Below, one piece after another: positions 5,557 through 61,043 of a stretch of DNA of 64,000 nt. Each line of letters opens with the position of its first letter. The first letter of the stretch is position 1. A program made the position numbers and the translations under genes. The DNA comes from Thuidium tamariscinum (taxonomy: Eukaryota > Streptophyta > Bryopsida > Hypnales > Thuidiaceae): positions 37,963,682-38,027,681 of the forward strand of contig OX344749.2 in the NCBI GenBank assembly GCA_947034885.2, written 5' to 3'. Below the pieces are notes generated by a model. The model had not been told where the DNA came from. It worked only from the letters and a program-made list of their open reading frames with translations, and did no database searches.

Positions 5557-5924
5557 ATCACCTTTTCCCATCAGTGTACTTTACTTCCCAAGAATTTAGC
5601 CAGTTGTAAGGTTGAGGCAGCAGTAACCGATCATTTAACTTAACCCTTAAACAACGCCCAAGCCATTTTCTGGTTGATGAACTTCAAGGAATCTTTCTAT
5701 GTAGGACAGAATTGCAATCATTCATCCTTGAAATTAGGGGTGGAAAAGGAAGATCTTCTACAGTGCTTTGACTTCCAATGTGTGTTTTTAGATTTTTTTG
5801 AACCAATGATTCCCACGGTATCAAAATTCTTCAATTCCACAACCACCAGCTCATCATTTAGGGGTTAAGCAATTTCAGAGCAAATTGTGCATAGTATGTG
5901 GTGGTGGAAATCTTTCTCATGTAG

Positions 5925-15512: not shown

Positions 15513-15932
15513 TATAGTAGAAGGACCCATAACTGATCAAACAAGCAATTTTGGTCATGATCTAAGGTAGGGCAAGGCAAAACAAATATCTCTCAAGTAC
15601 ATCGATAGAAATGATGGGGATTGTAAAAAAATTGGTAGTTTTATCTCTTGAATTGAAATTACTATAAATTTTGAAAGGCAAAAGTTGGCCTTGACCCATG
15701 TCCAATATCTAAAGTCATCCAATTCTGATAATTCAATAACTACTTTCCTACTCATTGAATCCTACTTTCTTGCTCACTTATGTGCCATTAACTTATCGGT
15801 CCAAACTTTGAAAAAGTATAGAAATACACATTCCAAGGAGAAAATGAAAATCCATTCCAATCTTGGATGGAAATAGGGTACCCTTTTGATTGTTGATGGA
15901 ATCCTGGTTAGTAATGGGTCCCTTTACCATAG
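15513..15932. mobile_element. Family C element, copy C1
   Basis: Left end ATAGTAGAAGGACCCATAAC; the right end read backwards is ATGGTAAAGGGACCCATTAC, an imperfect terminal inverted repeat. The interior words (CTTGAATTGAAATTACTAT, GGCCTTGACCCATG, CATTCCAATCTTGG) recur in opposite orientation at 21.6, 41.6 and 44.2 kb. About 420 bp, no transposase, so a non-autonomous DNA element is inferred. Confidence 0.6.
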
Positions 15933-21570: not shown

Positions 21571-21622
21571 AACAAAAAGCCTCATTTATTAAAGGTAAAC
21601 ATAGGAAATTTAACATAGGTAT

Positions 21623-22025
21623 TGTAGAGGGGGCCCATTACTAACTAACACTCCATTAATAATTAATAGGGTACTATATTTCCAACTAGGGTTGGAATGG
21701 ATTTCTATTTTTTCCTTGGAGTGAATGTTTTTGTACTTTTTAAACGTTTTGTCTAATAAGTTAATGACATTAAATAAACAAGAAAATAGAAGCAATAAGC
21801 AAGAATGTAGTTATTGAATGATCTAAATTGGATGACTCTAGATGTCCATCATGGGTCAAGGCCAACTTTTGGCTTTCAAAATTCATAGTAATTTCAATTT
21901 AAGACATAGAATTACCAAAAGAATTGCAATCTCCATCAGTTTTGTCAGTGTCCTTCTAAAATGTTTGTTATCCCTTACACTATTCTAGATCATGTCCGGA
22001 TGTGCTTATTTTCTTGATTACAGGT
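21623..22025. mobile_element. Family C element, copy C2
   Basis: Left end TGTAGAGGGGGCCCATTACT resembles the right end of C1 in reverse. It carries the same interior in opposite orientation to C1 (GTTGGAATGGATTTCTATT, GGGTCAAGGCCAACTTTTGG, AAATTCATAGTAATTTCAAT). The right end, near the GATCATGTCCGGATG words, is less certain. Confidence 0.55.
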
Positions 22026-22503
22026 TTGTTTGCTATATCACCTAGTTTCAACATAAATATTATTGAGTATCACCCAAGTATTGAGGAACTAGAATAAACC
22101 ACCATTGACTAGATGCTTCCAATCACCAAATACTAAAACAATGAACACTACATTGGCACTAGACAACATTGGGTTCTTGTGAACAAAACAATTGAAAGGC
22201 AAAATCTAATCACCATATAGTCATTGCACATTGTATAGTGAAGGGTTGTAGTATTTATCTCAAGAAATTCAAGTTTATTATGTTTAACCTCTAAATGACA
22301 AGCATGAAACCATATGGAGCTCTTAGTTGCCTTTCACACTGGTGTGTACGATTGCCCACCTCACTTCTACGTAAAATAAGTATGTCAAATGCAACAAAAG
22401 TCAATACAAAATTGTGCCCACAATTAAAATTATGACTTCAATAGTGTAAGCTTGATGTTGTGTTCAAAGAATCTAGGCTTCCCTAAAAATATGAGTTCAT
22501 TAA

Positions 22504-23449
22504 CCCCTAAAGAACCAAGCTGCATTTTTTGGCAACATAGTGATTTTGGGTAGCTCACTACAAATGGAGTTTTCAATTTTTTTCTTTCAAATTTTCACAC
22601 AATGTCTGCCCAAGGAGTGGCTTTAAGGCCCAACAATTTTCATAGCTTTTGAATACATGGTTAAAAAGTTATGGCATGATATATCACTTTGTTTGCTCAG
22701 CGGGCAATTTGGGCAAAAAGAAAACTTCTTTAAAAATGATTTTTTTAAGAATTTTTTTTTGAAATTGGTTTATTAGATTTTTATCTAAGTGGAAAGCTTT
22801 GAATCTTTTCATTTCAATCAATGAGTCAAAAGTTATGAGAGTTTTAGTTTGGGGTAGTGTGTGGCTAATTATAGAATCTCTACACTACAAAAAAAGTTTG
22901 AAATTCTTTATTTAATGCAATTTTTAATATTTTTGGAAAAAAATAAAAGCAGTAGGTAAAGATTTTTTATTAAAATTTTTTAACCAATTGAGATTGGCAT
23001 TTTTCAATTCCATAAATTAATTGTTTATAATTTTGTATTTTAGCTCATTTTCTACTTCTTTCTACTCACTATTTTTTTCCTATATGTTGTACAGTTCCAA
23101 ATGATTTGAAATTTTTTGAGCATGTAGACAACTTGCCTTTAAGGATGAATTCAAGGAGTTGCAAGCAACTTGAACTTTTTTTCTTACAAATGTGACCTTG
23201 TGAAGTGAAGCTGCCCGGATTTTCGTAGTGGTAAAAAAAGGCTTTTTGTAGCTTCAAACACTAAAATCTTGCAATCTACGTGGTGGAAAATTCTGAAATT
23301 TTTTCCTCATCCTTTCATAGAATCTTACTACAAGATCTAACGATTATATGTGTCAAAAAACAATTTTTTTTTCTAAGTTTTGGAACATGTATTAGAAATG
23401 GCAGTTTTGGAGTGGTTTTAGTGAAAACATAGTCATGATCTTTTAGAGG
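22504..23449. mobile_element. Family B element B1: piggyBac-like, TTAA-flanked
   Basis: Exact TTAA on both sides (22500-22503 and 23450-23453). Left end CCCCTAAAGAACCAAGC; right end read backwards CCTCTAAAAGATCATGAC. The interior is the same as B2 at 40602-41548 in opposite orientation (for example GCCCAACAATTTTCATAGC here, its inverse near 41425). 946 bp, no open frame of note. A TTAA duplication with ends beginning CCC is the hallmark of the piggyBac superfamily; Kolobok also uses TTAA. Non-autonomous. Confidence 0.7.
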
Positions 23450-23784
23450 TTAATTGACACTAATTTTTGCTCTACATCATGGCACATGGTCTTAAGTGCC
23501 CTGCTTTAAAAACCCGGATGATAAGCAACATTTCTCCCTTCATCAACCACAAATTGACTTGCGCATTGTTTAAAGGTTAAGATGCAACAAAATTTGCAGG
23601 AAAAAGCCTTTTTATGAAAAGAATTTCAAGTGAATCTTGACATGGCATTGAATAATCATGCCAATTTTGAGAGCTTGCAAATTCCTATTGTGTTGTCAAA
23701 GAGAATTTGAATTTCCTCTGTGCGCTGATTGGCAACTGTCTGCTGCTCCAAAATGAAAAAAAAAACTAATTAATTAAATTAAAT

Positions 23785-24064: not shown

Positions 24065-27000
24065 ATGCAGTGCGTAGCATGTTCTGGTATGCTCCAGCCA
24101 CAATGTCCGTCAAATTCTCTCTCCTCCTTGTTCTGGAATGACGTTACCATTTTAAGGATTGAGTCAAAGCGTGCGCCGGTGCAGAGAATCTGGCATTTGA
24201 CACAGGCTGTGGCGCATGGAGCTCGTGGGAGAGGCTCCCATGGTAGAGGTAACAGCAACTGGGGTTCCGGGACCTTGTCCAAGGATTTTCGTGGAGAATC
24301 TTTTGGTAGAGAAGATTATAGTTCGAGAAAAGAAGGGCAAGGGCAAGACCGAGGCCGAGGTTCAGGGGGAAGCTACAGAGGCAATGGAGGTTCTAGGGGC
24401 AGTTACAGAGGCAATCGAGGTTCAGGGGGAAGTTACCGAGGCAACAGGGGTGCACGAGGTTCAGGAAATGGTACTACGAGAGGAAGAGGAAATGGTTCCA
24501 CGAGGTATGACGAGCTTCGTCGATTAGCGGAGAAGCGGATGCACGATGGTGCTTTTCAGATTTTGGACGAAGAGACGGGCGAGAAGGCGATTGTGTGGGG
24601 AGTCGAGGATGCGGAGTCTTGGCCGAAGCCTACTGCGGAGGATTTGAATTGGAAACCTACAACAATGGCGGTGGCTGGCGATGTTTCTGAAGAGGGTTGG
24701 TACAAGGCTATGGAAACGTCCATGGCTGGACCCTCGGGGTCTTTCAGTGTCAAGGGCGTGCGACAAGGCGGTATGATGGTTGCACATTTGAGATTTAGGG
24801 TTTGGGCTTAGGGTTTAAGGTTTCCTCTGTTTTCCTTTGCCTGAAGTTTTGTTAGCCTTACAATTTGATGAGTTCGTTTCATTCTTTCTGTAGTCTTCCA
24901 ATATACCAAAGAGCACAACATTTGCATAATGTATGCAAAATTTTATAATAGAACAAAGTTTGGTTTTCAAATAATTTCTTTAGCACAATTAAATAGATAA
25001 TTTATTTTAGAGATGTACACATAGTGACAGGTGGAAGGAAAGGAAAGGTAAGGAAACTGAGTAAGATTTGAGGAGTCGTTGTTAGGAACAGCGGTCAATA
25101 TAGGAGACGGTATTAGGTCTCTAAAGATATTATTATCTTTACCGCAGGGGTTTACGATGAGGACGAGGACGAGGATGACGAAATGGAGGACACAGATGAC
25201 GACGAGGACGAGGATGAATTTGATGATGATCTACCTGAAGAACCACCCCGAGTTGTCAAAACTGTAAGACCTGCTAGACTTAGGGTTTTCGGCCGGGATT
25301 TCAAACAGAAGGAGGTGCTGAAATTGGAAGCTTCGGAGGAAGTGCATTTTGAATCTTCTCGTGATGGAGCTCTAGCGCAGAGATTGAAATCGGAATTGAG
25401 CGTGAATGATGTGTCAAGCTCTGTTGTTGGTGTTGATAGCACGAGTTCTATCGACGTTGAGCAATCTTGGCCACCTGCTGGCCATCTCTTGACTAACTCG
25501 TCCTCAGATGTAGCTCCTCTCCTTGGAGCAGAGAGTAACACTGAAAAGCGCCCTTTCTCTGATCAGAACAGCTTTTCCAATGAGGAGGATATGGAACAAC
25601 AATGGCCACCAGTGGGAGCCATGTTCTCTGGGGACTCTGGTGCTTCTTCATTATATGGGCATTCATCAGACAGAACAGCAAATTTGGACACAAGTGTGGA
25701 AGCAAGAAGGGGGCCGTTAAGCTTGTCCAAGAACGAGAAAAGTCGAGAGATTGCTTGGAAGGATGAAGAACGAGTTGTTCGGGAGGAAGATTGGAAACGA
25801 GGAGGTATGAATCCTGGGATTATTGACATTGACGAGGCGGAGGAGGAATTGAAAGGTCGAAGAATGGGAGACCGAAAGCCTCACGATCCTGCCCCATTGC
25901 GGTCTAATCTTTTAGATGATCTGAGATTGCAAACACATAAGAGGCTAGGTTCTAAAGTTGAGGTCGAAGATGGGGATAAACTTGTTGCAAAGTCAGAAGG
26001 GGACCATTCGACTGAGGAGGATTCCAGCAACGTGACTGTGCTGAAACCCCGTGGCTTTAGGGACTTGAAAGCTCGCTCTAACTACGACCCTAGCTTGGCA
26101 GCAGAGTTTTTTAGTACCAAGTCCTTCAAGGATGTGGGTGCTTCCGAGGATATCATCGCTGCACTGACGACCCTTCAATTAAGGAGACCTTCTGCAATTC
26201 AGGTGACTGGTGATCAAGTGCCTAGGTCTTAGACCTTTTGCATTGTAAATATTGTAGCCTTAGAGATTAGTGTTGGCATGCTGGCTCTTTAAGCCTTGTT
26301 GCTCCAGAAAGTGGGTGCTTCCATATCTACACGAGTTGAAATACATCATTTAGAATGCTTCAAGGAAGGTAACAAATTGTGTCAATAACAAGAAGAAACC
26401 ATGTCCTACATTTTTTAGCTTTAGAATTTATTTTATTGAGAGTTACTGTAATCGACTATTGGATTTCAAAGTGAACTTTATAATTTTAACTTAGGCACTT
26501 AGAGGTTAATCGCTGATTATGATGTTTGCAGTACACATCGTATAGACAACATTATGGCATGCATTTTGAGACGGTCGTCCAGCCCTGAGACCAATTTGTC
26601 GTAGTATGTACGTGTCATGGAGGTAGTTCATCTTTTATTAAGTGAGTTCAAGACCATTTTGCTTAAGCCATCTGAGTGATGTTTTGCAGGCCATGGCATT
26701 CAAGCCAATTTTGGAAGGACAGAGCTGCATTGTTGTGGATCAAACAGGATCAGGCAAGACTCTGGCCTACTTAGCTCCTCTTGTTCAAATGTTGCGGGCA
26801 GAGGAAGGAAAGAGCCAAACAAAGCAACTGAATAAAAAGTCTCGAGTCCTTGTTTTGGTACCTACAAGCGAGCTTGCAGTCCAGGTTGGTGCTTTTGATC
26901 TTTTTGTGTCTTTTATAGTCACATTATTAGATATAATGAGAGTAAATTAAATGCTTTGGCTTCTCAAAGTAAATTTTCAGGCTACAGTATTAGATGGTGG

Positions 27001-31499: not shown

Positions 31500-32260
31500 T
31501 TCAAACTCCGAGTCTCATATAATTGGATCTTGAACCCGGGATCTTGAAGAGGTTCGTTCTCACCCGATCGATCGATCGATCAGTGCAACTGTTCCGCGTG
31601 AGAAAGCTTTCTGATCGGCTACTGTAGCTGGTCCTCGCTCGACATGAATGAGTTCAACGTAACGTAAATCAGCTCTTCCAATCCCGCAATTACTCCCAGT
31701 GTGAGTACTGGCCCTGCGCGCGGAGCTTCAAACTGTCGTCGTCACCTGGTGGATCGGAGTGATCGATCTCTAGTTGAGGAGCGAGCGCAAGTTAATTAAT
31801 TACGGCCAAACACTACGTACTGCATGTAGTGTGCGTACAGTCCAGTACAAATGGGAAGGACCAACTACAATTAATTAATATGTATAATTTTCTCCAGATT
31901 CATCAGCCTCCACTTGAAAGATGACTTTGCTGTACCTGGCTCTCCGATCCTGCTGGTTGCCACTCCAGCAACCGCCGAACAATGCAAGTGGAGCTCGACA
32001 TCATCATCATTCTTAGTTAGCTTTCGATTTCGATTTCGATGCAAACCAGGTGGCACGAAGTGACCTTCCAATTCATGCCATCGCCATGGAAACCAGCCGG
32101 CAGTCGATCCAGCCAGGCCACAGCTAGGACAGGACAGGACCAAGGCACGCTCGGGAGGATTGGAACATCATCGATCTAGCTTGAGCTTGGCAGGAGATCG
32201 AAAGCGGATTAACCCTGGAAGGACGGACTAGTCTCCGTGGAAATCATGCTTTTGGAAACC
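31500..32260. other. GC-richer patch without a gene
   Basis: Composition rises and includes short tandem words (GATC repeated four times near 31567, TTTCGA repeats near 32030). A 90-codon minus frame at 31871-32143 has no recognisable motif and no partner exons. It could be a promoter relic, a non-coding transcript or a decayed gene. Confidence 0.3.
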
Positions 32261-32269
32261 GTGGGAATC

Positions 32270-33420
32270 ATCTACTATAAAAAAAATTCAAAAGAACTTA
32301 CTGTACTTATTGGAGACTAAACTTTTGTTCAAAGATGAACAATTGCAATTCTGGCTTACATGCAAGAACTCTCTGTCACTTAGTGTCCGCAGCATCCTTC
32401 CAAGGTTAAATCCATTGGTGGGTGTCTTGAGTGGAATGAGATAAGGTAGGAGGTCTATGTAGTGCTCATGCTCTGAATTAAAGTGTCATGTTACACAAAG
32501 GTACATTTTTCTTTCTCTTTGCATCAACAATGTACAAACAGTGTACATTTTAGGAGGTGGGCATTTTTTTTTTAAAAATCAAATGTCTCCAAAGAGACAA
32601 AGGTGGACATATTTATTGACTATTGCATTTCAACTTCAAAAATCCATAACTAATTTTATAAAGCTCCCAAAGAAATGTGAAACAATGTGGATTTGATACT
32701 GATTCTAATTGTCTTTGAAGGAAAAAAAATTGAAAATTACTTTAAGAATTATAACCTCCCTAAATGAGTTAATTTTGAATCCCTAGATGGATGCTTTGTA
32801 GACCTCCTACCTTATTAATGCATTAAATTGTATAATTTTTACATAAACTACTTATTAAGAGCCATACAAGAGAAGTATTGTACAAGACTACACTAGTATC
32901 TTTCAATAACCACTTTGTCACATTTTACTTCCACATAATAAATATGGTGCAATATTTTGCACACATATTATTTATAAAAAAAAAAAAGTTGTTGAACTTG
33001 CTATCTGTCCACAATGTCTCTTGCAAGTTGAATTTCAAAATTTGAGCACCACAAAGATACCATATACTTGGCTACCTCTTCATCTAACTAAGATAGACAT
33101 ACCTATGTCTATCCATCATGGATCCTCTTTCCAACTACAACCCTTTTAACATTTTATCAAGTCTTTGAGTTCAATGATATATGGACTAATGTAGATAAAA
33201 GGGATCCCTTGGGACAAGGGTCCATAATGGAAAAAGAAGGAGGTTTGTAAAGCACCCATTTAGAAGTTGATAATTAATTTGGGGAGATTAAACTTCTTGA
33301 AGTATTTTTCAATTAAAAAAATTTCAAAAGAAGAATGGAATTGACATTCACCCCAGCTCGTTTCACGTTTGGGGGAGCCCTATAGATAGAATGAGTTATA
33401 AATTTTTGAAGTTGAAGCGC
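32270..33420. other. AT-rich stretch, nothing recognised
   Basis: No gene, RNA or clear repeat structure seen on either strand. Confidence 0.5.
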
Positions 33421-39404: not shown

Positions 39405-39677
39405 AAGTAGGTACACCCAAAAGCGCCATGTTCCTAAAAGCGCCATCTACAATGTGCATACATTTCCAAAATCAGTCATGTTCACAGACTATAGATGGTG
39501 CTTTCAGAAACAAACTTTGACCATTAATAACTTTTGCATACGGTATCCAAATCCTATGTTCTTTGGAGCATTGGAACATGCTTTCACTTGCCAACAAGAT
39601 TGCATGAAAATCTGAACGAGTTAATAATAAGAACTAGACACAATATGAATAAGTGGCACTTTTGGATGTACCCACTT
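39405..39677. mobile_element. Family A element, copy A1 (TA-flanked)
   Basis: Left end AAGTAGGTACACCCAAAAGC; right end read backwards AAGTGGGTACATCCAAAAGT. TA at 39403-39404 and at 39678-39679. 273 bp. The interior TTAATAACTTTTGCATACGG is shared with A2, A4 and, reversed, A3 and A5. It preserves the empty site of the B3 insertion. TA duplication and size fit a Tc1/mariner-type MITE, though the termini match no family I can name. Confidence 0.78.
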
Positions 39678-40350
39678 TATTAAGCATGGATGTATGCCCT
39701 CTGCCTTTTCACTTAAGGTAGTCTACTCATAAAGTGACCATTTAAACCTACCTGACTCATCATTGACAGTATTACATATTTCAAACAACATGTCACTTGT
39801 TCCTAAAGAGGGGTCACATTTAGACCAGAGTCGCCTTGTAGAGCAAACTACCAGCTACCTTACCTTATATCTTACAGCTTGGGGCCATGGGCTCTCCTTG
39901 TGACTTTGCAGGCAGAGTTGCAGGACCGGCCATTGAGCTGCCTCAGTGCCGCACATGAAATCACCAACACTGTCAATATGTATGCAAAGAGTGAACAATT
40001 CCCAACCCACGGCAGCCTGGCATTTCAGAAACTACAGTAAGTAAGCAACATAATACAACCACCTCCATCTGACTGCAGAATATATATAACTTAGCATAAT
40101 TCCATAACAATGGAGACAAATCTGTACACTAATTCTAAGAAGATTTTTTACAACTGTGCATCACCAGTGATGGTTGGAACACTTTACAATCATGGTCCAA
40201 GTGCCAGCTAAAACAGTCACAACCAGCCCTTTGTTTTCCGGCACCATAGGGCCAGATTGCACCATTTCAAAATAAATGTTTTTTTTTCAGATAAAAGTAA
40301 TCTTTTTTTCGCCAGAAATTATTTAGTTTTCATTAAAATATGGATGAAGT

Positions 40351-40526
40351 CACCAAATTTGGATGAAAAAGTGTATGAATATGATGGAAAAGTATTTTTT
40401 AAGTCCAAAAGATAAATGAATGTAGAAATTCAAAGCTTCACCAAATTTAGATGAAAAAGTGTATGAATATGATGGAAAAGTGTTTTTAAGTCCAAAAGAC
40501 AAATGAATGTAGAAATTCAAAGCTTC
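40351..40526. repeat. 88-bp tandem duplication
   Basis: The unit starting CACCAAATTT at 40351 and again at 40439 (ATGAAAAAGTGTATGAATATGATGG in both) differs at a few positions; a third partial start lies at 40526. It lies inside the right arm of the foldback element. Confidence 0.85.
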
Positions 40527-40601
40527 TTCAAATTTGAAGTGATCACCATCTTGGCACTTTCTCAAAAAGTAAAAAAAGAAAATTGGGTCACAACCTGTTA
40601 A

Positions 40602-41548
40602 CCCCTAAACCCCCGGACAGCGTTTTCACCAAAAAAAATGCTCCAAAACTGCCATTTCTAATACAAGAGCAATTTTTTTTTTAAAACACATTTTTGACTC
40701 ATGTAACTGTAGGATCTTGTAGTAAGGTGGTTTGTAAACATGTGGAAAAAATTTCAGAAATTTCCACCATGTAGATTGCAAGATATAAGCATTTGAATTG
40801 ACAAAAACTGTTTTTTTATCCCTGCGAAAATCCGGGCAGCTGCACTTCACAAGGTCACATTTGTGTGAAAAAAAATTCAAAATGGTGGTTACTCTTTGAA
40901 TTCATACTTCAATGCAAGTTGGCTACATTCTCAAAAAAATTCAAACCATTTGGAATTGTACAACATATAGGAAAAAATAAGTAAGTAGAAAGAAGTAAAA
41001 AATGAGCCAAAATACTAAATTGTGAACATTTTATTCATGGAATTGAAAATTTTCAATCCCAATGGTTAAAATGTTGAAATAAACAATCTACACCTTTTGT
41101 TTTTATTTTTTTCCAAAAATATGAAAAATTGAATTAAATGAAGAATTTCAAACTTTTTTTGTACTGTGGAGATTCTGTAACTGGCCGCAAACTACCCCAA
41201 ACTCAAAATCTTCATAACTTTTAACTCATTGATCGGAATGGATTGATTCAAAGCTTCCCATGTCTGTATAAACCTAAAGAATCAATTTGAAATTTCACTT
41301 TTCAAAAAAAAGTTTTTTTGAAAAAGTTTTTTCAGCTGCCCGGGCTGCCCGCCGAGCAAACAAAGTGACATATCATGCCATAACTTTTTATCCACAAAGT
41401 CAAAAGTTATGAAAATTGTTAGGCCTTCAAGCTACTCCTCGGACACACATTGTATCAAAATTTCAAAGAAAAAAAATAAAAACTCCATCCGTAGTGAGCT
41501 GCCCAAAAAATCTATAATCTCAAAAAACGTTGTCCGGGGGTTTAGGGG
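40602..41548. mobile_element. Family B element B2: piggyBac-like, TTAA-flanked, best-preserved ends
   Basis: TTAA on both sides (40598-40601 and 41549-41552). The left end CCCCTAAACCCCCGGACAGC and the right end read backwards, CCCCTAAACCCCCGGACAAC, agree over about 25 bp with a single difference. 947 bp, no coding frame. Same interior as B1 in opposite orientation. The near-identical ends make it the least decayed member in the window. Confidence 0.8.
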
Positions 41549-41586
41549 TTAACATTCAATTACGTCAGGCTTGGTTTAACTTACAA

Positions 41587-41985
41587 TAAGGTAGAACCGC
41601 CATAACCAACTAGCACCTCATAGCCAATCTGTATATTCATGTATTTCCAATCAAGACTAGAATGTTTTGTTTTTCTTCTTTTGCAAAGTTGGAACTAAGA
41701 GTTCATGGTACATGTCCCAAAGTAGAGTGGCAAGAAAGTAGGAAGCAATGAGTGTGAAAGTAGTGTTTTGAATGATCAGAATTATAATAGTTCGGAGATT
41801 GGCTATGGATTTGGTGCACTTTTTGCCTTTCAAAATTAATAGTAATTTCAATTAATGTGATAAAATTACCAAAGTTTGTGCAACCCTCATCATTTCTAAT
41901 GGTGTGCCTTTGAAAATATTTGCTTTGCCTTGCACTATGTCTAGAATATGTCAAATGATCAGTTGCAGGTGAGATGGAGAGCCGA
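41587..41985. mobile_element. Family C element, copy C3
   Basis: Left end AAGGTAGAACCGCCATAACC, with interior words CAAAATTAATAGTAATTTCAAT, GATAAAATTACCAA and TTGCCTTGCACTATGTCTAG as in C1, C2 and C4. The right end near GATCAGTTGCAGGTGAGATG is imprecise. Confidence 0.5.
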
Positions 41986-42047: not shown

Positions 42048-42319
42048 AAGTGGGTACACCTAAAATTACACCTCACCTAAAAGTGCCATCTATAGTTGTT
42101 GTACATTTCTAAATTCCATTATGTACCTATTTGGTTGGAGTGCTTTTAGAAACAGACTTTGAACCTTAATAACTTTTGCATACTGTATCCAAATGCTGCG
42201 TTTTTTGGTGCATTGAAATGTGCTTTCACTTGCCAAGAAGACTATATGAAAATTTGATCAGACCTGTAATAGTTACTAGGCACAATACCAAAAAGTGGCA
42301 CTTTTGGGTGTACCCACCT
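42048..42319. mobile_element. Family A element, copy A2 (TA-flanked)
   Basis: Left end AAGTGGGTACACCTAAAA; right end read backwards AGGTGGGTACACCCAAAAGT. TA at 42046-42047 and 42320-42321. 272 bp, nearly the length of A1 and same orientation; closely similar to A4 at 46764-47024. Confidence 0.78.
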
Positions 42320-42408
42320 TAGATGAGCTCTTGACTGTGCAGCTAAGTTATTTCAAGAGACTGGGTACCTGCAAGAGCATGTTGGAATAACTGAACTTAC
42401 TGTATGTG

Positions 42409-44073: not shown

Positions 44074-44191
44074 AATCAAGTATTTGGAAGACACATTAAC
44101 TACAACCTAGTGCAACAATTTGGTGTAGTCTATGCATGGTACAAAAATGAGAACATGGACGCTAATGGGTGTTTCTACCTTATAAGTTGTG

Positions 44192-44745
44192 GTGTGGTAG
44201 AGGGACTCATTCCTAACTAGTGCCCCATCAACAATCAATAGGGTACCACTAGTCCAACTAAGGTTGGAACGGATTTCTATTCTCTCCTTGGAGTGCATAT
44301 TTTTGTACTTTTCAAGTTTGGGACCAATAAATTCATGACACGTAAGTGAGCAAGAAAGCAGGAATCAATGAGTAGAAAAGTAGTTCTTGAATGATCAAAA
44401 TTGAATAACTTGAGGTGTCAGTCAATGGTCAAGCACAACTTTTGTCTTTTCTTTTTTGACACAAAAGAAACATGTTCAATTGCAAGAGAGAAAGGAACAA
44501 ATTGCCAGCGACAAGTGGCCTAGCAAGACCAAACAAAGACACAACTACAAAGAAGGAAAAAAGAACAAACACAACTTTTGTCTTTTAAAATTCATAGTAA
44601 TTTCAATTCAAGAGATAAAATTATATATTTTTTTGGCAATCCTCATCATTTTTATCAATGCACATCTGAAATGTATACTATGCCTTGTACTACCCTAGAT
44701 CAAATAAGCACCGTGCTTATTTGATTAGTTATGGATCCCTCTGCC
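44192..44745. mobile_element. Family C element, copy C4, carrying a nested insertion
   Basis: Left end GGTAGAGGGACTCATTCCTA; right end read backwards GGCAGAGGGATCCATAACTA. The interior agrees with C2 (GGTTGGAACGGATTTCTATT, CTTGGAGTGCATATTTTTGTAC). A 119-bp insertion at 44451-44569 is flanked by a 17-bp direct repeat. Confidence 0.65.
44451..44569. mobile_element. 119-bp insertion with a 17-bp target duplication (SINE-like or retrocopy)
   Basis: The word CACAACTTTTGTCTTTT occurs at 44434-44450 and 44570-44586, directly flanking the insertion; other family C copies carry this site once. Read on the minus strand, the inserted piece ends in AAAAAAG. A long target duplication with an A-rich end suggests LINE-type reverse transcription of a short RNA. 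No A/B box of an RNA polymerase III promoter could be seen. Confidence 0.5.
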
Positions 44746-45046
44746 ACACATTTAAAGAGTTCAAGAGAAATTGGGAAATCCCCTTTGCAATGAAATTCCA
44801 TTTCATTTGTTTCAAAGAAAAAAGGAGAGAAATTATAAATTATACAATTATTTGGGTAACAAAATTATAATTGAAATGCTCTTTAGTGGTGATGAAGTTT
44901 TAGCACTTAATTTTTGTAACTGATCCACAACTGAAGGGGTAATATTCTATCAGGATCTGTAAGCTTATGGTATTTGCACATTAGCAGATTTCCCTTATCA
45001 ATTTATCATACTGTTACAAAAGTTTCTACGGCCTGAGCAATAACTA

Positions 45047-45899
45047 AGGTACGTAGACCCAAAAGCGCCGCTTATTCATATTGTGTCTAGTTCTTATTAT
45101 TAGCTCGTTCAGATTTTCATGCAGTCTTGATGGCAAGTGAAAGCATGTTCCAACGCACCAAAAAACATAGGATTTGGATACCGTATGCAAAAGTTATTAA
45201 CCCTTTAAGGACCGTGGTTGATTTTGGGGTGGGAACAATTTCTTTACATAATTCTTGAAAAATCCCATTTTGTGACCATTCTATGAATGTAATTCTAAAT
45301 CAAATTGTCTGAATTGGTTCTATAGGACAAATCTTTGAATCAAACAAAAAATGGAAGCGATCCAATGGTTCACATCTTTGTAATTAATTTTCAAAGATTA
45401 ATGTGTTGCAAATAGCCTTTGGCAATGGTGCTAAATAGGGTCTGCCACAATTGGGCATAAATTTCACTAAATGCTCTAAAAATTGATCCTAAACCTTCCA
45501 ATTAGTTCTTTCACACATATAAGTAGTCATCTTTTACATTCATTATTTTTTTTTTGTTGCAATATTTCACATATGAAGGGCCAAGCAATTTAAGTTTGGA
45601 TAAGCATAGCTAATGCATTTTTGCATGTATTTCCTTGAAAATGGCTTTGCTTGAAGTGTACAAAGACACTCTAATTGCGTTGTTCTCTAAGTTTTTAGAA
45701 ATGAGATGTTTTATAATTAGTAATAGACAAAAAGTGCAAAAATCAACCCAAAAGTAGTTGACTGGTCCTTAGAGAGTTAATGGTCAAAGTTTGATTCTAA
45801 AAGTGCCATCTACAGTCTGTGAACATGACTGATTTTGAAAATGTATGCACACTGTAGATGACACTTTTAGGAACATGGCACTTTTGGGTTAATATAACT
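45047..45899. mobile_element. Family A element, copy A3, split by a family B element
   Basis: Reverse orientation relative to A1: CTTGATGGCAAGTGAAAGCATG, CGTATGCAAAAGTTATTAA, then the B3 insertion, then TGGTCAAAGTTTG and GTGCCATCTACAG. The left end AGGTACGTAGACCCAAAAGC follows TA; the right end is degraded. Confidence 0.7.
45201..45776. mobile_element. Family B element B3, nested in A3 at a TTAA
   Basis: TTAA at 45197-45200 and 45777-45780. Ends CCCTTTAAGGACCGTGG and, read backwards, CTCTCTAAGGACCAGTC. The same A position in A1 (inverse of 39524-39537) carries a single TTAA, so the insertion duplicated TTAA and changed nothing else. 576 bp; interior unlike B1/B2. Confidence 0.82.
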
Positions 45900-46763: not shown

Positions 46764-47024
46764 CATAAAATTGCACCTCACCTAAAAGTGTCATCTATAA
46801 TTGTTGTACATTTCTGAATTCCATTATGTACCTATTTGGCTGGAGCGCTTTAAGAAACAGACTTTGAACCTTAATAACTTTTGCATACTGTATCCAAATG
46901 CTGCATTTTTTGGTCCATTGGAACGTGCTTTCACTTGCCAAGAAGACTATATGAAAATTTGATCAGACCAGTAATAGTTACTAGGCACATTACCAAAAAG
47001 TGGCACTTTTAGGTGTACCCACCT
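46764..47024. mobile_element. Family A element, copy A4 (left end truncated)
   Basis: Right end AGGTGTACCCACCT followed by TA at 47025-47026. The body is nearly the same as A2 (ACAGACTTTGAACCTTAATAAC). The left end lacks the GGTGGGTAC part. Confidence 0.7.
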
Positions 47025-47314
47025 TAAGCTTACTGTAAGTTAGAGCTGTGCAAAATGTTTGCAGGGAACTCAGTTGCTGTCTGAGAGAAATTCTGACTCT
47101 TCAACCAGAGGTTTTCATTGTATTCAAGGAGTGGGAAATAAGTTACTCTTGAAACTATTGGAAAAGAAAAAGATTACTTCTGAAAATGAGCTATGAAATC
47201 AAATTCTATCCATTCTAGAGCTTGGAACTTTAACTTGGATCCTACACTCAATTGGTATTCGGATTGACCACATATAGGAAAAAATGGGGGAAAGGCTAAT
47301 GAAATAATTAAGAT

Positions 47315-47615
47315 AAAGCCACCTATAACGGATCAAATAAACAATTCTAGACATGATTTGGTATAATCCAAGGCAAAAAGTGCTCTAGACCTAGAGCCTA
47401 CCTCTAAACTCTTTTAATTTCAATCATTCAAAAACTACTTCCCCACTCAATGCTCACTATTTTCTAGCTCACTATTTTGGGACATGTATCATGTACTTAC
47501 TAGTCCCAACTTTGAAAAGGAGAAAAAAGAACATTCCAACCTTGGTTGAAAGTAAATCAATTTACAAGTTGGTTATGGGGTGCTAATTGAGAATGGGTGG
47601 CTGCACCTTAGTGAG
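47315..47615. mobile_element. Family C element, copy C5 (diverged)
   Basis: Left AAGCCACCTATAACGGATC and right, read backwards, AGGTGCAGCCACCCATTCTC. Interior words CATGATTTGGTATAATC, AAAACTACTTCC and CATTCCAACCTTGG follow the C1 order. Confidence 0.5.
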
Positions 47616-47652
47616 ATCAGAGTCGACATAGAAGAGTTGAACATTCTTTTAA

Positions 47653-47995
47653 CCCCTAAAGGACCAAGTTGCATTTTAGGCAACATAGCAATTTTAGGTA
47701 GCTTACTACGGGTAGAGTTTTTTTGTTTTTGTTTTTAAAATTTTTCATACAATTTATGTCCAAGAAGTAGTTTTAAGGCCCAACAATTTTCACAACTTTT
47801 GATTTCATGGTTTAAATGTTAGTGTATAATATGTGACTTGCAATGCTTAGCAAAAAGCCTAGGTAGCCCGAAAAACTTTTTTTAAATCACTTTTAAAAAA
47901 AATAAAAATTTGAAATTGATTTTTTACATTTATATATACATTAGAAGCTTTGGATCATTCCATTATGATTAATGAGATGAAAGTTATGACAGCAT
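47653..47995. mobile_element. Family B fragment B6 (left end only)
   Basis: TTAA at 47649-47652, then CCCCTAAAGGACCAAGTTGC and about 340 bp matching B1 (GCCCAACAATTTTCACAAC, GATTAATGAGATGAAAGTTATG). The match stops at about 47995, where unrelated hairpin DNA begins. Confidence 0.6.
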
Positions 47996-48900: not shown

Positions 48901-49304
48901 TAGAAAATTCAAACCAAGATGAATTTCATTTTTTTATCATTTTGAGGACAAAAAATATCAATTTTTGGAATTCCTTGTAAGCATTCTATATATATATATA
49001 TTGGATGGTCTACAATAGTCATACACCTCGATATCGGAGTCAAAAATACAGTCAAACCTCCTTTCAAGCCTTGGCTAAAACTCAACATTTTTCCATCAGC
49101 TTTGTAAATTTGTTGATGCCCAGCCATTTTCTGAGTCCTATCTTGCATGCAATGGGGTACTCATAATTGTGGGCCCCATTGTTGTGTGACCCAGCTAAAT
49201 ATTAAATTTGAACCATATCTTGCGTTTGTTCTAAAGAATTTAAATTTGTGAGTGGGTATAGAGTCTTTGAAAACCATACCTACCCACAAACTTGAACACC
49301 TTGT

Positions 49305-50140
49305 AACTTTCATCTCATTGATCATAATGGAATGATTTCATCATAATTTATTTAGAAATCTAAAGAATTAGTTTTAAATTTATTATTTTTTAAAAAAAAA
49401 TTTGAAGAAGTTTTTAGGCTGCCTAGGCTATCCATTGAACAAGAAAACCACATATCATGCAATAAATTTTTAACCATGTAATCAAAAGTTATGAAATTTT
49501 TTGGGCCTTGAACCCTAAAGTTCTTTAACTATGTTTTCACAAAAAAAAACCTCCCAAACTGCCATTTCTAACACAAGTACCAAATATTTGGAAAATGTCA
49601 TTTTTGGACATATATATAATTGTAGGATCTTGTAGTATGCTAGTTTGAGAAGACAAGGAAAAAAATTCAGAAATTTCTATGGTATGGATTACAAGATATA
49701 AACATTTGAATTGATCAAAATTCGTTTTTTGGCCCTACAAAAAAACGGGCAACTATACTTTACAAGCTCACATTTGCATGAAATTAAGTCGAAAATGGTA
49801 ATGCTTCTTTGGATCCATTTTGCAAGGCAAGTTGGTGACATGCTTGAAAAGTTTCAAATCATTTGGAATTGTATAACATATAGGAAAAAAATAGTAAGTC
49901 AAAAGAGTTAGAGATGATTTAAAATACTAAATTGTTAAGAATTTATTTGAGAAATTGAAACTTGACAATCCCAATGGTTCAAATGTTGTAATAAACAATC
50001 TACACTCAGTTTTTTTGTTTTTTTCAAAAAATATTAAAAATTGAGTAAAATAAAGGACTTCAAAGTTTATTTTAGAGTAAAGAATCCATAACTACCTGCA
50101 AACTAAAATTCTTCATAATTTTTGACTCATTAATCCCATA
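49305..50140. mobile_element. Family B fragments, reverse orientation, rearranged
   Basis: Two blocks (about 49305-49520 and 49525-50140) match B2 in its orientation: CATATCATGCAATAAATTTTTAACC, ACTGCCATTTCTAACAC, GGATCTTGTAGTA, CATATAGGAAAAA, CCCAATGGTTCAAATGTTG. The block order is rearranged and no TTAA ends are kept, so a broken copy. Confidence 0.6.
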
Positions 50141-51853: not shown

Positions 51854-52709
51854 CCCCTAAATGTCTTGATTTATTGTGAAATGGTCAAACATCATGTCTG
51901 AACTAAATTTGACCTTCTAAATTGTGTTCAAACAACAATATTATATTTTTATTACTTGAAACTAAGAATTGTATATCATTATGAGAAATTTCAATTTGTT
52001 TTGTGAAAAATTATAATTTTAATCATTTTTGTTGCAAAAATTGAACATAAATAAGTAAAAATAGAAAAAACAATTCAAATTATTTGAATTTTTCAGAAGT
52101 GGTACAAGTAGCAATGGAGATTAGTTTGAAAAATTTTCAATTGGTTATTTTATTTTTTACATCCCAAACAGCCACAACAAAGACCTTGAAGTCAAATTCA
52201 ACTATCAAACCAAATTTATCCTTTTATTTAATTGATGTATAAAATTTTGATATTTTTCACTAGTGAAAAAATTCATTTTCTATTTATGCTGTTTTTTTCA
52301 ATAATTTTGATGGAAAAATAGAGTTATTGTGATTTTTTTAAGCTAAAGGTGGAAATAAAATTATATCAATTAGAAAATATATTAGAAAAAATTGTAATTT
52401 TTACTATAAATCAAGGATAGAATGAAAAATATAATTTTATAATTTAAATTCAAATTAAATTTTAAAAAAAGAAAATATGAATTAAAAACACACCATACTG
52501 TGTTATTTGGATTCTAACACATGGAGCTTTCAGTTGCAATAATTCTTTCAATTTTTGACATTTTTCAAAATTTCAAAATGGAATAGGAAGAAAACTTGTC
52601 AAGCTTCATTTTGTTAGTTTAAAATATATACCAATAATGGATATTTTGAAAGTTACAATCAGGGTTGACCAAGGCGCATCCACTTTTTGGATGCGTGGAC
52701 CTTAAAGGA
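51854..52709. mobile_element. Family B element B4 (TTAA-flanked)
   Basis: TTAA at 51850-51853 and 52710-52713. Left end CCCCTAAATGTCTTG; right end read backwards TCCTTTAAGGTCCACGC. 856 bp, strongly AT-rich, interior unlike B1/B2. Confidence 0.65.
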
Positions 52710-53039: not shown

Positions 53040-54900
53040 TGCTATCCAAAACTGCAAACCAACCCTATTGGCTGAAAATTTTGAATTTTTGAAAATTTTT
53101 TAATCAAAAATTCTAAAACATGTTAAGAAACTTAAAATTGATTCTTGAGAGAGAAAAAATAAAAAAGATATTTTAAAAATAATTTTCATTTATTTTTAAA
53201 TAAATATTTTTTGACATTGCAACATCTTAACCATGTTAGATTGTTGAAGTGGCTTGTTCCTACAATCTAAGAACTCAAAAAAACTCATGGAATTCTAGTG
53301 CCTTCAAATCTCTTCTAATGTTAGTATGCACACCAATTTTGAGTGCAAAATTTCTTAGGAGTTGTGAGAATATACCAAGAGAAATGTGTATTTTCCATTT
53401 TAATATGTTGTCTTTACCTACAATGTTTTAGAAATTTGAATATAAAAGATTTTTGGGATTGGATATAACATGAACAAATACAAAGAGTATTAGCATACTA
53501 AAATGCACTTCTAAAGAACTTAATTTCACATTAAAAAGTATCAAATTTATCACACAATCCACCTTGCAATTATAGAAATGTAATGTTTTTTTATGAGTAG
53601 AAATTGCAGACAGCTTAAAATCAACACTTGCATGTTGTAATTTTCAATGATGAAAATCATGAAAAGGCTTTCAACTTTTTATTGGGACCATTCTCAAAGC
53701 AAATGGATAAATACAATTTCTTAGATCTCAAATCAAGTGAAATTGCCAAGCTTGGCATAAAGTCAAGAAATGAAGTAAAATTGGCAAGCTTTATACTCCA
53801 CTTATAATATATTTACACCTCTAAAGACCTCTCAATAATCAAATATGCACTTTTTTCAATGAAAAATGAAAGTTTTCAATAGTTAATCCTCAAAATTGCT
53901 TATTTTTTTTATAAATAGTTAAAGGAATATAACTACCCACACAAAAATGGGGCTAAAATTATGGCTAAAAATGGACCTACATGGTTGATTGGGCAATTAG
54001 AAGTTAATTCTAGAATGATGTTGGAATCATTGTGGAAATCACCTTTTTTGAAACCATAGAATCATCGGTATTAAGAAAATTAACTCATTTGAAGTCAAAG
54101 TATTATAGAAGATTTCTACTTTGTACCTCTAATTTTGAAGATGAATGATTACATTTTTGTCCTACACAAGAGAAATGCCTTGTCATTCATCAAACACTAT
54201 ACATCTATAATGTCTTTTATCAGTCAAGCAATTCAACCTATTAGTAGTATGGAGAAGTTTAGGAAAACAAATTCCATGTAGAGAAATATATTTCAAATGG
54301 ATTTCATAATTTTTCTTAAAAACTCCTTCTAAAACAAAATTACCATAACTTTTTTTCATCAAGACTCTATTTATCTCATTTTCAATATGTAGGCAAACCT
54401 ATTTCCAACTACATGATGGTTACAAAATCAATGCAAGGCTTTCAATGTACATGTTGTTATCATTGTATGACTTCATTTTACATCTCCTAAACATTTTTGT
54501 TGCTCCCATGGGTCCTATGATACATAAGTTGTCAACTACAATTCACCTCATCAAAAAGTAAACAACCTAAGCTATAATATTGGAAGGCTCATTGGAAATG
54601 GGTGATCTCCTTTATCTTAAAATCTACTCACAAAGTGAACATACACCTCAAAATTGCAAAGGATTGAATTTACTTGTCTACAAATTCTATTAATAAAGGC
54701 ATTCTACTCTTAAAAGCAACTATTTAAGGTTCTTGCTTTTTAGAGAAGCTAAACTCACTAAACCAACTTTCAATGACTTCTTGTAGGAAGAAAAATGGAT
54801 CAAATTGGCATTTGTCTCAAATCATTCTATAATTTTGGAACCTTTGTGAAATTAGTTAGAAATTTTTTGAAGTTGAAATGCAATGGTTACCAAAAGTAGT
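53040..54900. other. AT-rich stretch, nothing recognised
   Basis: Only short chance frames; no repeat structure was seen. Confidence 0.5.
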
Positions 54901-54924: not shown

Positions 54925-56327
54925 GTACAGTGGGGTACCAATCAAAATGTTGTTTTCGAATTCGTAGTAAGAAAAATTTCAGCATTGCCAACTTTGAAAG
55001 CCTCTCGAGAGCTCAAAAATTGGTATTTTATCATGAAATTTTTATCGCAATATCATCTTTAAGTAAATTATATGTGTGACAAATTTCAAGGCCAAAAAAT
55101 TCACCAAAGAAAAGTTATTCAAAATCTACCAACATGGGTAGTGGTGAGAAACATTTCACTACTTTCAACTTTGACACCTTCTTAAGGAATGATTTTTTTT
55201 TTCTTTTGCCATGAAATTCATGTCATGAAACAATCACTATGTTTTTAATATGTATAAAAAATTTCAAGGTAAAAAACTTTTGTTTTATGAAGATATTTGA
55301 AATCTCCCAACAAGTGTAGTTTTGAGAAATTTTTCACAATTGCCAACTTTGACACCCTCCCAAGTGCTGAAAAATTGGTTTCTTACCATGAATTTTTTTT
55401 GTGAAGTCATCTCTATGTTGATAATATGTGCTACAAATTTCAAGTTTAGATAAATTACCAAAAAGAAGATATACAAAATCTCCCAACAAGTATAGTTGTG
55501 AGAAAATTTTCACTATTGGCGACTTTGACACACTCCCAAGGGCTGAAAATTTGTCTATTTAACATGAATTTTTTTGAATAAGATCAACTTTATGTTGATA
55601 ATATATGTTATAAATTTCAAGTTTAAAACACTTAGCCAAAAAAAGATATTCAAAATCTCTCAACATGTGTAGTTGTAAGGTTGAGTTTTTACATTCGTGT
55701 CAAACTTTGCTCCACAAAATAACACTATACTAAGGGCTCAAAAACTCCTCCTCACAACTACATATGTTGGGAGATTTTGTATATCTTTTTTTTGGTAATT
55801 CATTTGAACTTGAAATTTGTAGCACATATTATCAACATAGAGATGACTTCACAAAAAAAATTCATGGTAAGAAACTAATTTTTCAGCACTTGGTAGGATG
55901 TCAAAGTTGACAATTGTGAAAATTTTCTCAAAACTACACTTGTTGGGAGATTTCAAATATCTTCTTAAAACAAAAGTTTTTTACCTTGAAATTTTTTATA
56001 CATATTAAGAACATAGAGATTGTTTCATGACATGAATTTCATGGCAAAAGAAAAAAAAAATCATTCCTTAGGAAGGTGTCAAAGTTGAAAGTAGTGAAAT
56101 GTTTCTCACCACTATTCATGTTGGTAGATTTTGAATAACTTTTTTTTGGTGAATCTTTTGGCCTTGAAATTTTCATACATATAATTAACTTAAAGATAAT
56201 GTTGTGGTAAAAATTTCGCGGTAAAATACCAATTTTTGAGCTCTCGAGAGGCTTTCAAAGTTGGCAATACTGAAATTTTTCTCACTACGAATTCGAAAAC
56301 GACATTTTGATTGGTACCCCATTGTAC
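54925..56327. mobile_element. Long foldback element of seven ~177-bp units (four forward, three inverted)
   Basis: The ends GTACAGTGGGGTACCAATC and, read backwards from 56327, GTACAATGGGGTACCAATC are inverted, as are the following TTTCGAATTCGTAGT words. The landmark CAACTTTGA (or CGACTTTGA) occurs at 54989, 55166, 55344 and 55520. Its inverse TCAAAGTTG occurs at 55901, 56079 and 56255. The spacing is 176-178 bp throughout. The arms are about 640 and 590 bp, separated by a loop of about 160 bp near 55570-55735. No coding. The whole can fold into a long hairpin if transcribed. The transposon class is unclear; foldback or long-terminal-repeat MULE types are candidates. Confidence 0.8.
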
Positions 56328-56805: not shown

Positions 56806-57699
56806 TTTTTACATAATCACACTAAATAGTACCAAAGCTTCTACACAAAGTGTTACAAATTATAGTACAACAATTCCTAAAGGCAAGAGGGTGTTTTAGA
56901 AGAAAAATAGTCCAAATTGTCAATTTTTGATGCATTGTTTTAAGAAAGAAGTTATATATGTTTTTTGGAATTCCAACTATGATAAAGTGTATTAAACACA
57001 TAAGATGTTTTGGAGGATCTTTAGAAGATTGCAAGTTCCAAAAATGTAGAACACTTTGGGAACATTGGGAATGCTGCCATATAAATAATCTAATATAATT
57101 GAGAGATTGCTATGTTAGATAATATTATTAATTAATATTTCAATAAATCATAAAATAATTTTTAAACCAATTTTAATTTCTTAAGAAAATTCTATAAAAT
57201 TTAATAAAAATTTAATAAAAATTTAGGCCAATAGTGGATGGTTTATCACATAGGGAAAAATTGCAAGGATTAACCCTCAAACAATCTTCTAGAAGCCTAA
57301 AAAAAATCTAATGAGTAATACAATGTGTTAAAAAATTTCAGCCCATTTGTGTACATGAATTGAAAGATCATAATGTTAGGAGAATGAACAATTTTTTTTC
57401 TAGTCTTACAACACATAGTCAAAAGACTTTGAGCCTTCTTGGAATAAAATTTTTTACTATACAAAAATGATAATTTTGACTATTCAAAAGGTATATGATG
57501 TTAGGTTCACTCATGCAAATTTTAGAAATAAATATGGAGTCTTGCTTATTTTAGATCCTTGTACAATGCAAAGAGATTGTAAAGAAAATTAGTAATACAC
57601 TAGTCATTTTTATAAAAAATATTGTACAATGAGGAATTTTTTAAATTTGAAATTTCAATAGTAAAGAGTTAAAGACAAATATTTGAAATAAGGGAGAAA

Positions 57700-59300: not shown

Positions 59301-59308
59301 ATATGATA

Positions 59309-60289
59309 AGGTGGGTACACCCCAAAGGGCTAGACATTTGTCTTGTGCCTAGTTACCATTGTTAATCTATTCAAATTTTCATATAGTCTTGTTGGCAAGT
59401 GAAAGCATTTTCAAATGTATCAAAGAATGTAACATTTGAATACAATATGCAAAAGTTATTAAAGGTCAAAGTTAATTTATGAAAGTATTCCATCCAAATA
59501 CTTAGGTACATAACTAATTTGGGAAATGCACATAGACTGTAGATGGTGCTTTAACCCTTAAAAGACATATCTATAACCATTGTTGTTGAGCCTCATTGTC
59601 CGTAACTTTATTTGATTCCATTTTGGAATTAGATATGTATGAATAATTTTATATTTATTTTTCAGAGATGAAATTACATGTCTTTTGTATTTTATAAAAA
59701 ATTGTTTTTTTATCAAAAAATTTGTAGATAAAGTGAAGAAAAATCACATCAAATGAAAAGTATTTCAAAAAATCTGAAAATTTCACCATGTGTGTACATG
59801 ATAGTGACAAACATCATGGTGCAATCTTAATTCCTTGTGTCCTATGATTAGAATACAATGGACATTAAAAATACATCCAAAGTTCAAATTGCAATAAAAT
59901 GTTCAATATTATGATTTTTTCAAAAATTCCAATTGGAACAGAAACTAGAGAAGATGACCTTTATTTTGTTAGTTGGGCTCAAACTCAAAAAACGTTAATT
60001 TCAAGGAAAAATTACAAAGTTAGAACAAGGAGCAAAATATGCTGAAATAACAAATTTTGCCATCGATTTTCTTACTTACTTCTCATTCATGTGAAGACAA
60101 ACTCTAGCAAGACTATGAATTCAATTAAGTACTCTTCATAACCTTCTTTAAAAGGTCAACAACAAAAAAATGGATGAAAAAACGCTTTTTATCTCTCTCC
60201 AAAGACTCTTTTATTTATCCATATGCTTTAGAATGACGCCGGTGGCATTTAGGGGTTAAGGTCAATTACGCTTTTGGGTGTCCCCATCA
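59309..60289. mobile_element. Family A element, copy A5, split by a family B element
   Basis: TA at 59307-59308, then AGGTGGGTACACCCCAAAGG. The body is in reverse orientation to A1 (TCTTGTTGGCAAGTGAAAGC, ATGCAAAAGTTATTAAAGGTC), then the B5 insertion, then CGCTTTTGGGTGTCCCC at the degraded right end. Confidence 0.68.
59555..60255. mobile_element. Family B element B5, nested in A5 at a TTAA
   Basis: TTAA at 59551-59554 and 60256-60259. Ends CCCTTAAAAGACATATC and, read backwards, CCCCTAAATGCCACCGG. 701 bp, interior unlike B1/B2. The A sequence runs on either side. Confidence 0.72.
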
Positions 60290-61043
60290 GGGTTTTTTTA
60301 AGGCGATAAACAAACTAAAAGCACAAAAAAAAATTCTTCCACACCAAGCCTTTAGAAAAATTTGGAGGAAAAATAATTTTAAAAGCTAGATGTAAATTAT
60401 CAATCACACCCTAGTAGCCACTACCTTAACAAAGACTATTAGGATTTGCCACCCTGTTGCCACCTATCTAGATGTTGATTCAACAACTTTACATTTGCAA
60501 TCGCCTAAAATATACAAAAGTTGGAGATATAGGTATAGATCGTAGCCACATATACAAGGGCACCTTCATCCTATCTCCAGGTTTTGCTACTTCCTTTGAA
60601 GCTACAATTTTCTTGCTCTCAATTTTACTTGACTTTTCCTACCAATTAATTGCAATCTTTGAGGTTTCATTTTTGTTGCACAAACCATTCAAAACTTCAT
60701 GCACATAAATTATGAAGATATTAGACTTTGAAACCCAAGTACATGAATGAGTTGTAGTTCATGTGCATGAACTTGTGAGTCATAGTTTTCATAATTTAAG
60801 TGCATTCCATTTTGCACCACTTAGTTGCCCTATTTTGCACCAATCTAAAAGCTGTAGTTGGCAAAAATATTTTTTGGATTTTTGTTTTGAAGCCATACAA
60901 CTTACACTAATTCCTAACTTGGAGCCAAATATTGCACCAAAAGTAAATTTGAGTGTTGCCTAACCTCAACCACTTACTTCTCACCTAGAGCCCAAATCCA
61001 GATTCCCTTAAAATAAAATAAAACTCACTGGTCCGCATTATAA

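Follow-up and report, generated by a model that had tools for sequence, protein, structure and literature searches.

Non-autonomous DNA elements inserted at TTAA in plant-like DNA, probably moved by a piggyBac-type transposase

The stretch of DNA analysed here (the window, 64,000 bp) carries several segments bounded by TTAA, which raises the question of whether they are transposons and, if so, which type of enzyme moved them. The sequence-only reading had proposed a piggyBac-like miniature family with five complete elements of 576-947 bp. All five are present at the coordinates that it gave, with TTAA immediately outside each end:

22504-23449, plus strand: family A element A22, 946 bp, nested in an E-like element (22288-23576), TTAA at 22500-22503 and 23450-23453
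40602-41548, minus strand: family A element A40, 947 bp, TTAA at 40598-40601 and 41549-41552
45201-45776, plus strand: element B, 576 bp, in repeat R2, TTAA at 45197-45200 and 45777-45780
51854-52709, plus strand: element C, 856 bp, TTAA on either side
59555-60255, plus strand: element D, 701 bp, in a second R2 copy, TTAA at 59551-59554 and 60256-60259

The two ends of an element agree, in inverted orientation, at 14 of 14 positions at 40602, 11 of 14 at 45201, 10 of 14 at both 22504 and 59555, and 8 of 14 at 51854, so that the inverted ends are strongest at 40602 and weakest at 51854. Those of A40 extend over 25 bp with one mismatch, for about 12-19 bp in piggyBac elements. As for the term 'miniature', MITEs are usually shorter than 500 bp, and it suits only the group of a 221-bp element described below (E, the only one under 500 bp), not the elements of 576-947 bp.

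Insertion at TTAA is demonstrated by related sites that lack the element, and these were found for B, D and a broken family A element, A49. B and D lie in copies of R2, a repeat of about 270 bp:

39420-39690: R2 copy
42055-42330: R2 copy
46766-47026: R2 copy
45045-45892: R2 copy with B inside
59306-60290: R2 copy with D inside

At the site of B, the four other R2 copies have a single TTAA (39524-39527 in the 39-kb copy, and likewise in the 42-, 46- and 59-kb copies). Once B and one TTAA are removed, the two halves align unbroken to the 39-kb copy (91.2% and 91.7% identity), and also to the 42- and 46-kb copies. D occupies a different place in the 59-kb copy, at which the four sister copies read TAAA, one base off. 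The ends of R2 itself are inverted and close to A(A/G)GTGGGTACACCCAAAAG; TA lies immediately outside the six that are readable, and R2 is probably a separate TA-inserting MITE family.

The third site involves broken copies of family A. The fragments that had been noted at 47653 and 49305 do belong, as broken copies, to the family defined by the interiors of 22504 and 40602:

47653-47992, plus strand: A47, left third of a family A element, TTAA at 47649-47652, flank in common with 41552-41829
49512-50135, minus strand: A49, right two thirds of a family A element, with TCAA (49508-49511) beyond its outer end
49232-49507, minus strand: interior piece of another family A copy, the recipient of A49, the counterpart of its target being an intact internal TTAA at 22623-22626 in A22

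Beyond the right end of A49 come TCAA, a one-base change from TTAA, and then family A interior; the same interior follows an intact TTAA in A22 and A47. Here one family A element has inserted into an internal TTAA of another. A22 is itself nested in an E-like element that has its own TTAA-CC ends. In all three cases with sister sites, the TTAA target has been duplicated, as it is in piggyBac insertion, and the elements were left with TTAA on both sides. For A22, no well-aligned element-free sister site was found in the window, and for C neither such a site nor a second copy was found there; B and D are likewise single-copy within the window.

These sites also bear on the reading that the segments are larger or merely duplicated repeats, next to which TTAA stands by coincidence and which never transposed. 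Flanks aligning between copies beyond the TTAA had been named beforehand as the sign of such a repeat. A22 and A40 are 79.9% identical over 935 columns (69-80% among the family A pairs compared, also given as 72.8-79.9%), and their homology begins exactly at the TTAA (22500 vs 41552), the local alignment stopping 25 bp inside at the other end; the two elements have no abutting flank in common. However, the homology of A40 and A47 does continue past the TTAA into the flank, for about 280 bp, with 72.3% identity over 636 columns including the flank. This flank belongs to R1, a repeat with five diverged copies:

15519-15931: R1 copy
21618-22011: R1 copy
41660-41937: R1 copy
44191-44742: R1 copy
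47370-47539: R1 copy

Two R1 copies directly adjoin a family A element, one at 41552 and one at 47649. A further one lies about 490 bp from A22, in the opposite relative orientation and not abutting it. The pair formed by A40 and A47 may represent one insertion that was later duplicated, and because of their common flank the copies outnumber the insertion events. Beyond that pair, to which it does apply, the larger-repeat reading is contradicted for A, B and D, by the element-free sisters of B, D and A49 and by the unshared flank of A22, and we rejected it as exceedingly improbable.

In addition to the elements noted before, the window contains a smaller group:

5644-5864, plus strand: element E, 221 bp, TTAA on either side
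54004-54222, minus strand: degraded E copy with approximate bounds, 72.4% identity to E over 174 columns
22288-23576, minus strand: E-like outer element, 339 bp without A22 and one TTAA, TTAA on either side, similar to E only near its ends

Together, the elements of types A to E and their pieces cover 6,053 of the 64,000 bases, or 9.5% of the window. The divergence among copies suggests that the activity is old.

Do these elements have ends in common? We tabulated 15 ends, which were gathered with TTAA as a requirement, and the TTAA at those ends is therefore not independent evidence. Ten of them fit CCC(C/T)T(A/T)AA, and all 15 have A at positions 7 and 8. The shared end sequence proposed earlier holds for this core, whereas the longer match running to GGACC (CCCCTAAAGGACC) is restricted to certain ends, for example those at 22504 and 47653, both ends of B and one of C. 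The two ends of A40 (40602-40626 and 41524-41548) depart from their relatives in a matching manner after CCCCTAAA, with CCCCCGGACARCG where 22504 has GAACCAAGCTGC, as if they had changed together.

A chance origin of the TTAA-anchored ends is excluded by simulation. The window has 21 such ends with at most two mismatches from TTAACCCCTAAA; 200 simulated windows averaged 3.15, and none had more than 9. Correctly oriented end pairs number 14, a count in which one end may enter several pairings, whereas 60 simulations gave 0.27 on average and never more than 2. Next to the 914 oriented TTAA sites, the most enriched of the octamers that follow is CCCCTAAA (7 vs 0.05 expected). The longer CCCCTAAAGGACC occurs 21 times at up to three mismatches, for 8.8 in shuffled sequence, and none of 100 shuffles reached as many.

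The base outside the ends matters for a further explanation, namely that the elements are of the Tc1/mariner or PIF/Harbinger type, duplicate TA or TWA, have ends starting with ACCC and fall at TTAA by a chance preference. Read in that way, T-TA-A with ACCC..GGGT ends consists of the same letters as TTAA with CCC..GGG ends, and both superfamilies are among the common sources of plant MITEs in the available text of PMC12550479. A TA duplication of the Stowaway kind would leave the outer base free. Four end octamers, however, have 25 exact matches in the window, and TTAA stands directly before 12 of these, while ATAA, CTAA and GTAA stand before none; the octamers were chosen from TTAA-anchored ends, so that the test is not fully independent. 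With one mismatch allowed, TTAA precedes 19 of 262 occurrences (1.87 expected), CTAA one, and ATAA and GTAA none. With a 3-bp duplication of TTA or TAA, a one-base difference between the two ends would be expected, and nothing in the sister sites requires it. The sole Pfam match with a transposase name, HTH_Tnp_IS630 at 41322-41549 on the plus strand, is weak (E 0.12, below the cut-off); it would point to a group other than piggyBac and lends this explanation some support. Overall, we consider it improbable.

The ends agree in part with those of piggyBac. Such elements are described as starting with CC[C/T]T (PMC2872659) or CCC (PMC10813416), one coral family starting with CCCC (PMC2872659), in the parts of these papers that were available. 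In our table, 13 of the 15 ends start with CC and 10 with CCC, while the strict CC[C/T]T is found at only 4. Of the piggyBac signature claimed for the window, the TTAA target is borne out, and the starts are borne out in part. The sister sites and paired ends together support non-autonomous, TTAA-inserting elements with piggyBac-like termini.

TTAA duplications are produced by both piggyBac and Kolobok (PMC9587614, available in part), and Kolobok had been named as the alternative from the start. The duplications observed here would suit Kolobok elements too, and these are known from chlorophytes and red algae; however, their termini are described in the same source as 5'-RR..YY-3', which does not fit the CC..GG ends of the window, with C at positions 1 and 2 in 14 of 15 ends. 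We therefore disfavour this assignment as very improbable.

Another TTAA-specific superfamily might have mobilised the same non-autonomous elements, either Sola3 or one undescribed in plants. Sola3 duplicates a TTAA target. The superfamily Sola is listed for plants (moss Sola1, Capsicum) in lists from which piggyBac is absent, as far as the available portions of PMC9033089 and PMC10741241 go, and PMC10741241 gives 4-bp duplications for Sola. Set against this, the CCC-type starts agree with the piggyBac ends described in PMC2872659 and PMC10813416, and Sola termini are characterised as very variable in the available part of PMC10741241. No description of Sola3 ends was found in the literature searched, a set that left most subscription papers and Repbase outside its scope. 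A transposase could decide the matter, but none was seen in a Pfam scan of 21 stop-free frames, out of 198 that are non-genic and 55 aa or longer, and no match there reached its cut-off. The scanned frames included 10 of the 25 that overlap the elements or two doubtful pairs, and these ten gave no significant Pfam match. The exact 17-base end pattern matched none of the viral contigs searched. A mover of the Sola3 or of an undescribed type seems to us unlikely, though to be taken seriously.

On balance, we read the elements as old DNA transposons of the cut-and-paste kind, non-autonomous and probably mobilised by a transposase of the piggyBac type. The window holds insertions at TTAA, several interiors with a common end core, and at least one interior in several copies. 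Beyond this, we infer excision and pasting, one common type of enzyme and, in a step from end sequence to enzyme identity, its membership of the piggyBac (DDD) superfamily. A transposase supplied from elsewhere would recognise short inverted ends starting with CCC(C/T)T(A/T)AA; the element would be excised and then joined into a TTAA, resulting in TTAA on either side. This would correspond to piggyBac, which pastes at TTAA by way of a TTAA hairpin (PMC7351741, partial text). The interiors A, B, C, D and E would be different passengers, with ends usable by one transposase or by close relatives. A broader reading, in which a land plant has had an active and prolific TTAA-specific transposase, true piggyBac or undescribed, that spread unrelated non-autonomous families over about 9.5% of the window, appears to us evenly balanced between right and wrong.

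Some further candidates were considered. A pairing of the ends at 57274 and 58754 agrees at just 4 of 14 positions and was excluded from the count. The segment at 32213-32405 (193 bp, flanked by TTAA) has ends CCCTGGAAGGACGG / CCTTGGAAGGATGC, also given as CCCTGGAAGG / CCTTGGAAGG, which are alike at 11 of 14 positions; with these ends and no second copy known it was left out, and it is a possible further member. Single ends without a convincing partner occur at 918, 4127, 20485, 24818, 26509, 36065, 57270 and 58758. The one at 26509, a lone TTAACCTCTAAGTGCC end on the minus strand, lies in an apparent intron of a helicase gene.

This DEAD-box helicase gene (Pfam DEAD, E 2.5e-15) has one exon whose best solved match is DDX28 (35.7 bits), and we take its fragments to resemble plant RH50. 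Its four inter-exon gaps, with approximate bounds, contain 31-39% T. On this gene resemblance and these T-rich gaps we base, in the main, the likely plant origin of the window. In a frame upstream of the helicase domain, a 30-bp tandem unit at 24356-24444 encodes GSYRGN repeats rich in Gly, Arg, Ser and Tyr. The window also contains a xylulose kinase gene, with matches to the solved xylulose kinase 4bc2 (E 1e-33) and to FGGY_N (E 1.9e-05, just under the cut-off). Scans of the window with Rfam at gathering thresholds and for tRNAs gave no match. A large inverted repeat occupies 54925-56327; its arms, about 578 bp long, are 94% identical, a tandem unit of about 176 bp lies between its ends, and these share GTACA(G/A)TGGGGTACCAATCAAAATG. 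An 87-bp tandem unit in two copies (40350-40535, 93% matches) adjoins the element at 40602.

How unusual would such elements be in a plant? The sequence-only reading had considered piggyBac seldom, if ever, described as abundant in land plants, and the literature, seen in part, speaks on both sides. In the available text, piggyBac is absent from plant surveys with six TIR superfamilies (PMC9033089) and with seven superfamilies (PMC10741241). An analysis of five MITE superfamilies in 207 plant genomes (PMC12550479) and a plant MITE review (PMC12595863) contain neither 'piggyBac' nor 'TTAA' in their accessible portions, and in PMC10619864 'piggybacking' is used in another sense. On the other side, PMC8086355 and PMC10813416 state, with no detail in the text available, that piggyBac occurs in plants, PMC10794571 includes PiggyBac among the plant superfamilies that it lists, and a table for the fern Ceratopteris in PMC6890710 gives 1,230 PiggyBac-labelled pieces totalling 122 kb. 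TTAA elements of this kind in a plant are unusual, yet with precedent.

Should the host prove to be a land plant and the enzyme a piggyBac-type one, this superfamily would have to be added to those that shaped plant genomes, and pipelines based on five MITE superfamilies, such as that described in the available part of PMC12550479, would miss or misfile a TTAA class. The question of algal descent or horizontal transfer would then arise, and the system might be a source of a footprint-free transposon adapted to plants. With an enzyme of another type, the novelty would lie in a plant transposase specific for TTAA.

Several known systems, each taken from the part of its source that was available, resemble the elements of the window. 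Stowaway and Tourist (PMC12595863) are likewise non-coding plant elements with inverted ends, but their target is TA or TWA rather than TTAA. Kolobok (PMC9587614) has the same target duplication and differs in its RR..YY ends. Sola (PMC10741241, PMC9033089), reported in mosses and Capsicum, has a duplication of the same length, 4 bp. As for piggyBac/TTAA MITEs such as the CMITE families of corals, and the AmiPB piggyBac elements (PMC2872659), the CMITEs are about 100 bp long with a conserved interior, whereas those here measure 221-947 bp, have unrelated interiors, lie in a plant-like host and have no autonomous partner seen in the window. They nevertheless share TTAA on both sides, short imperfect CCC ends, non-coding interiors and nesting at TTAA, and the coral piggyBac-type ends, CCCTTTAAGCCCTA and CCCCTCAGTGTCCG, are close to those of the window.
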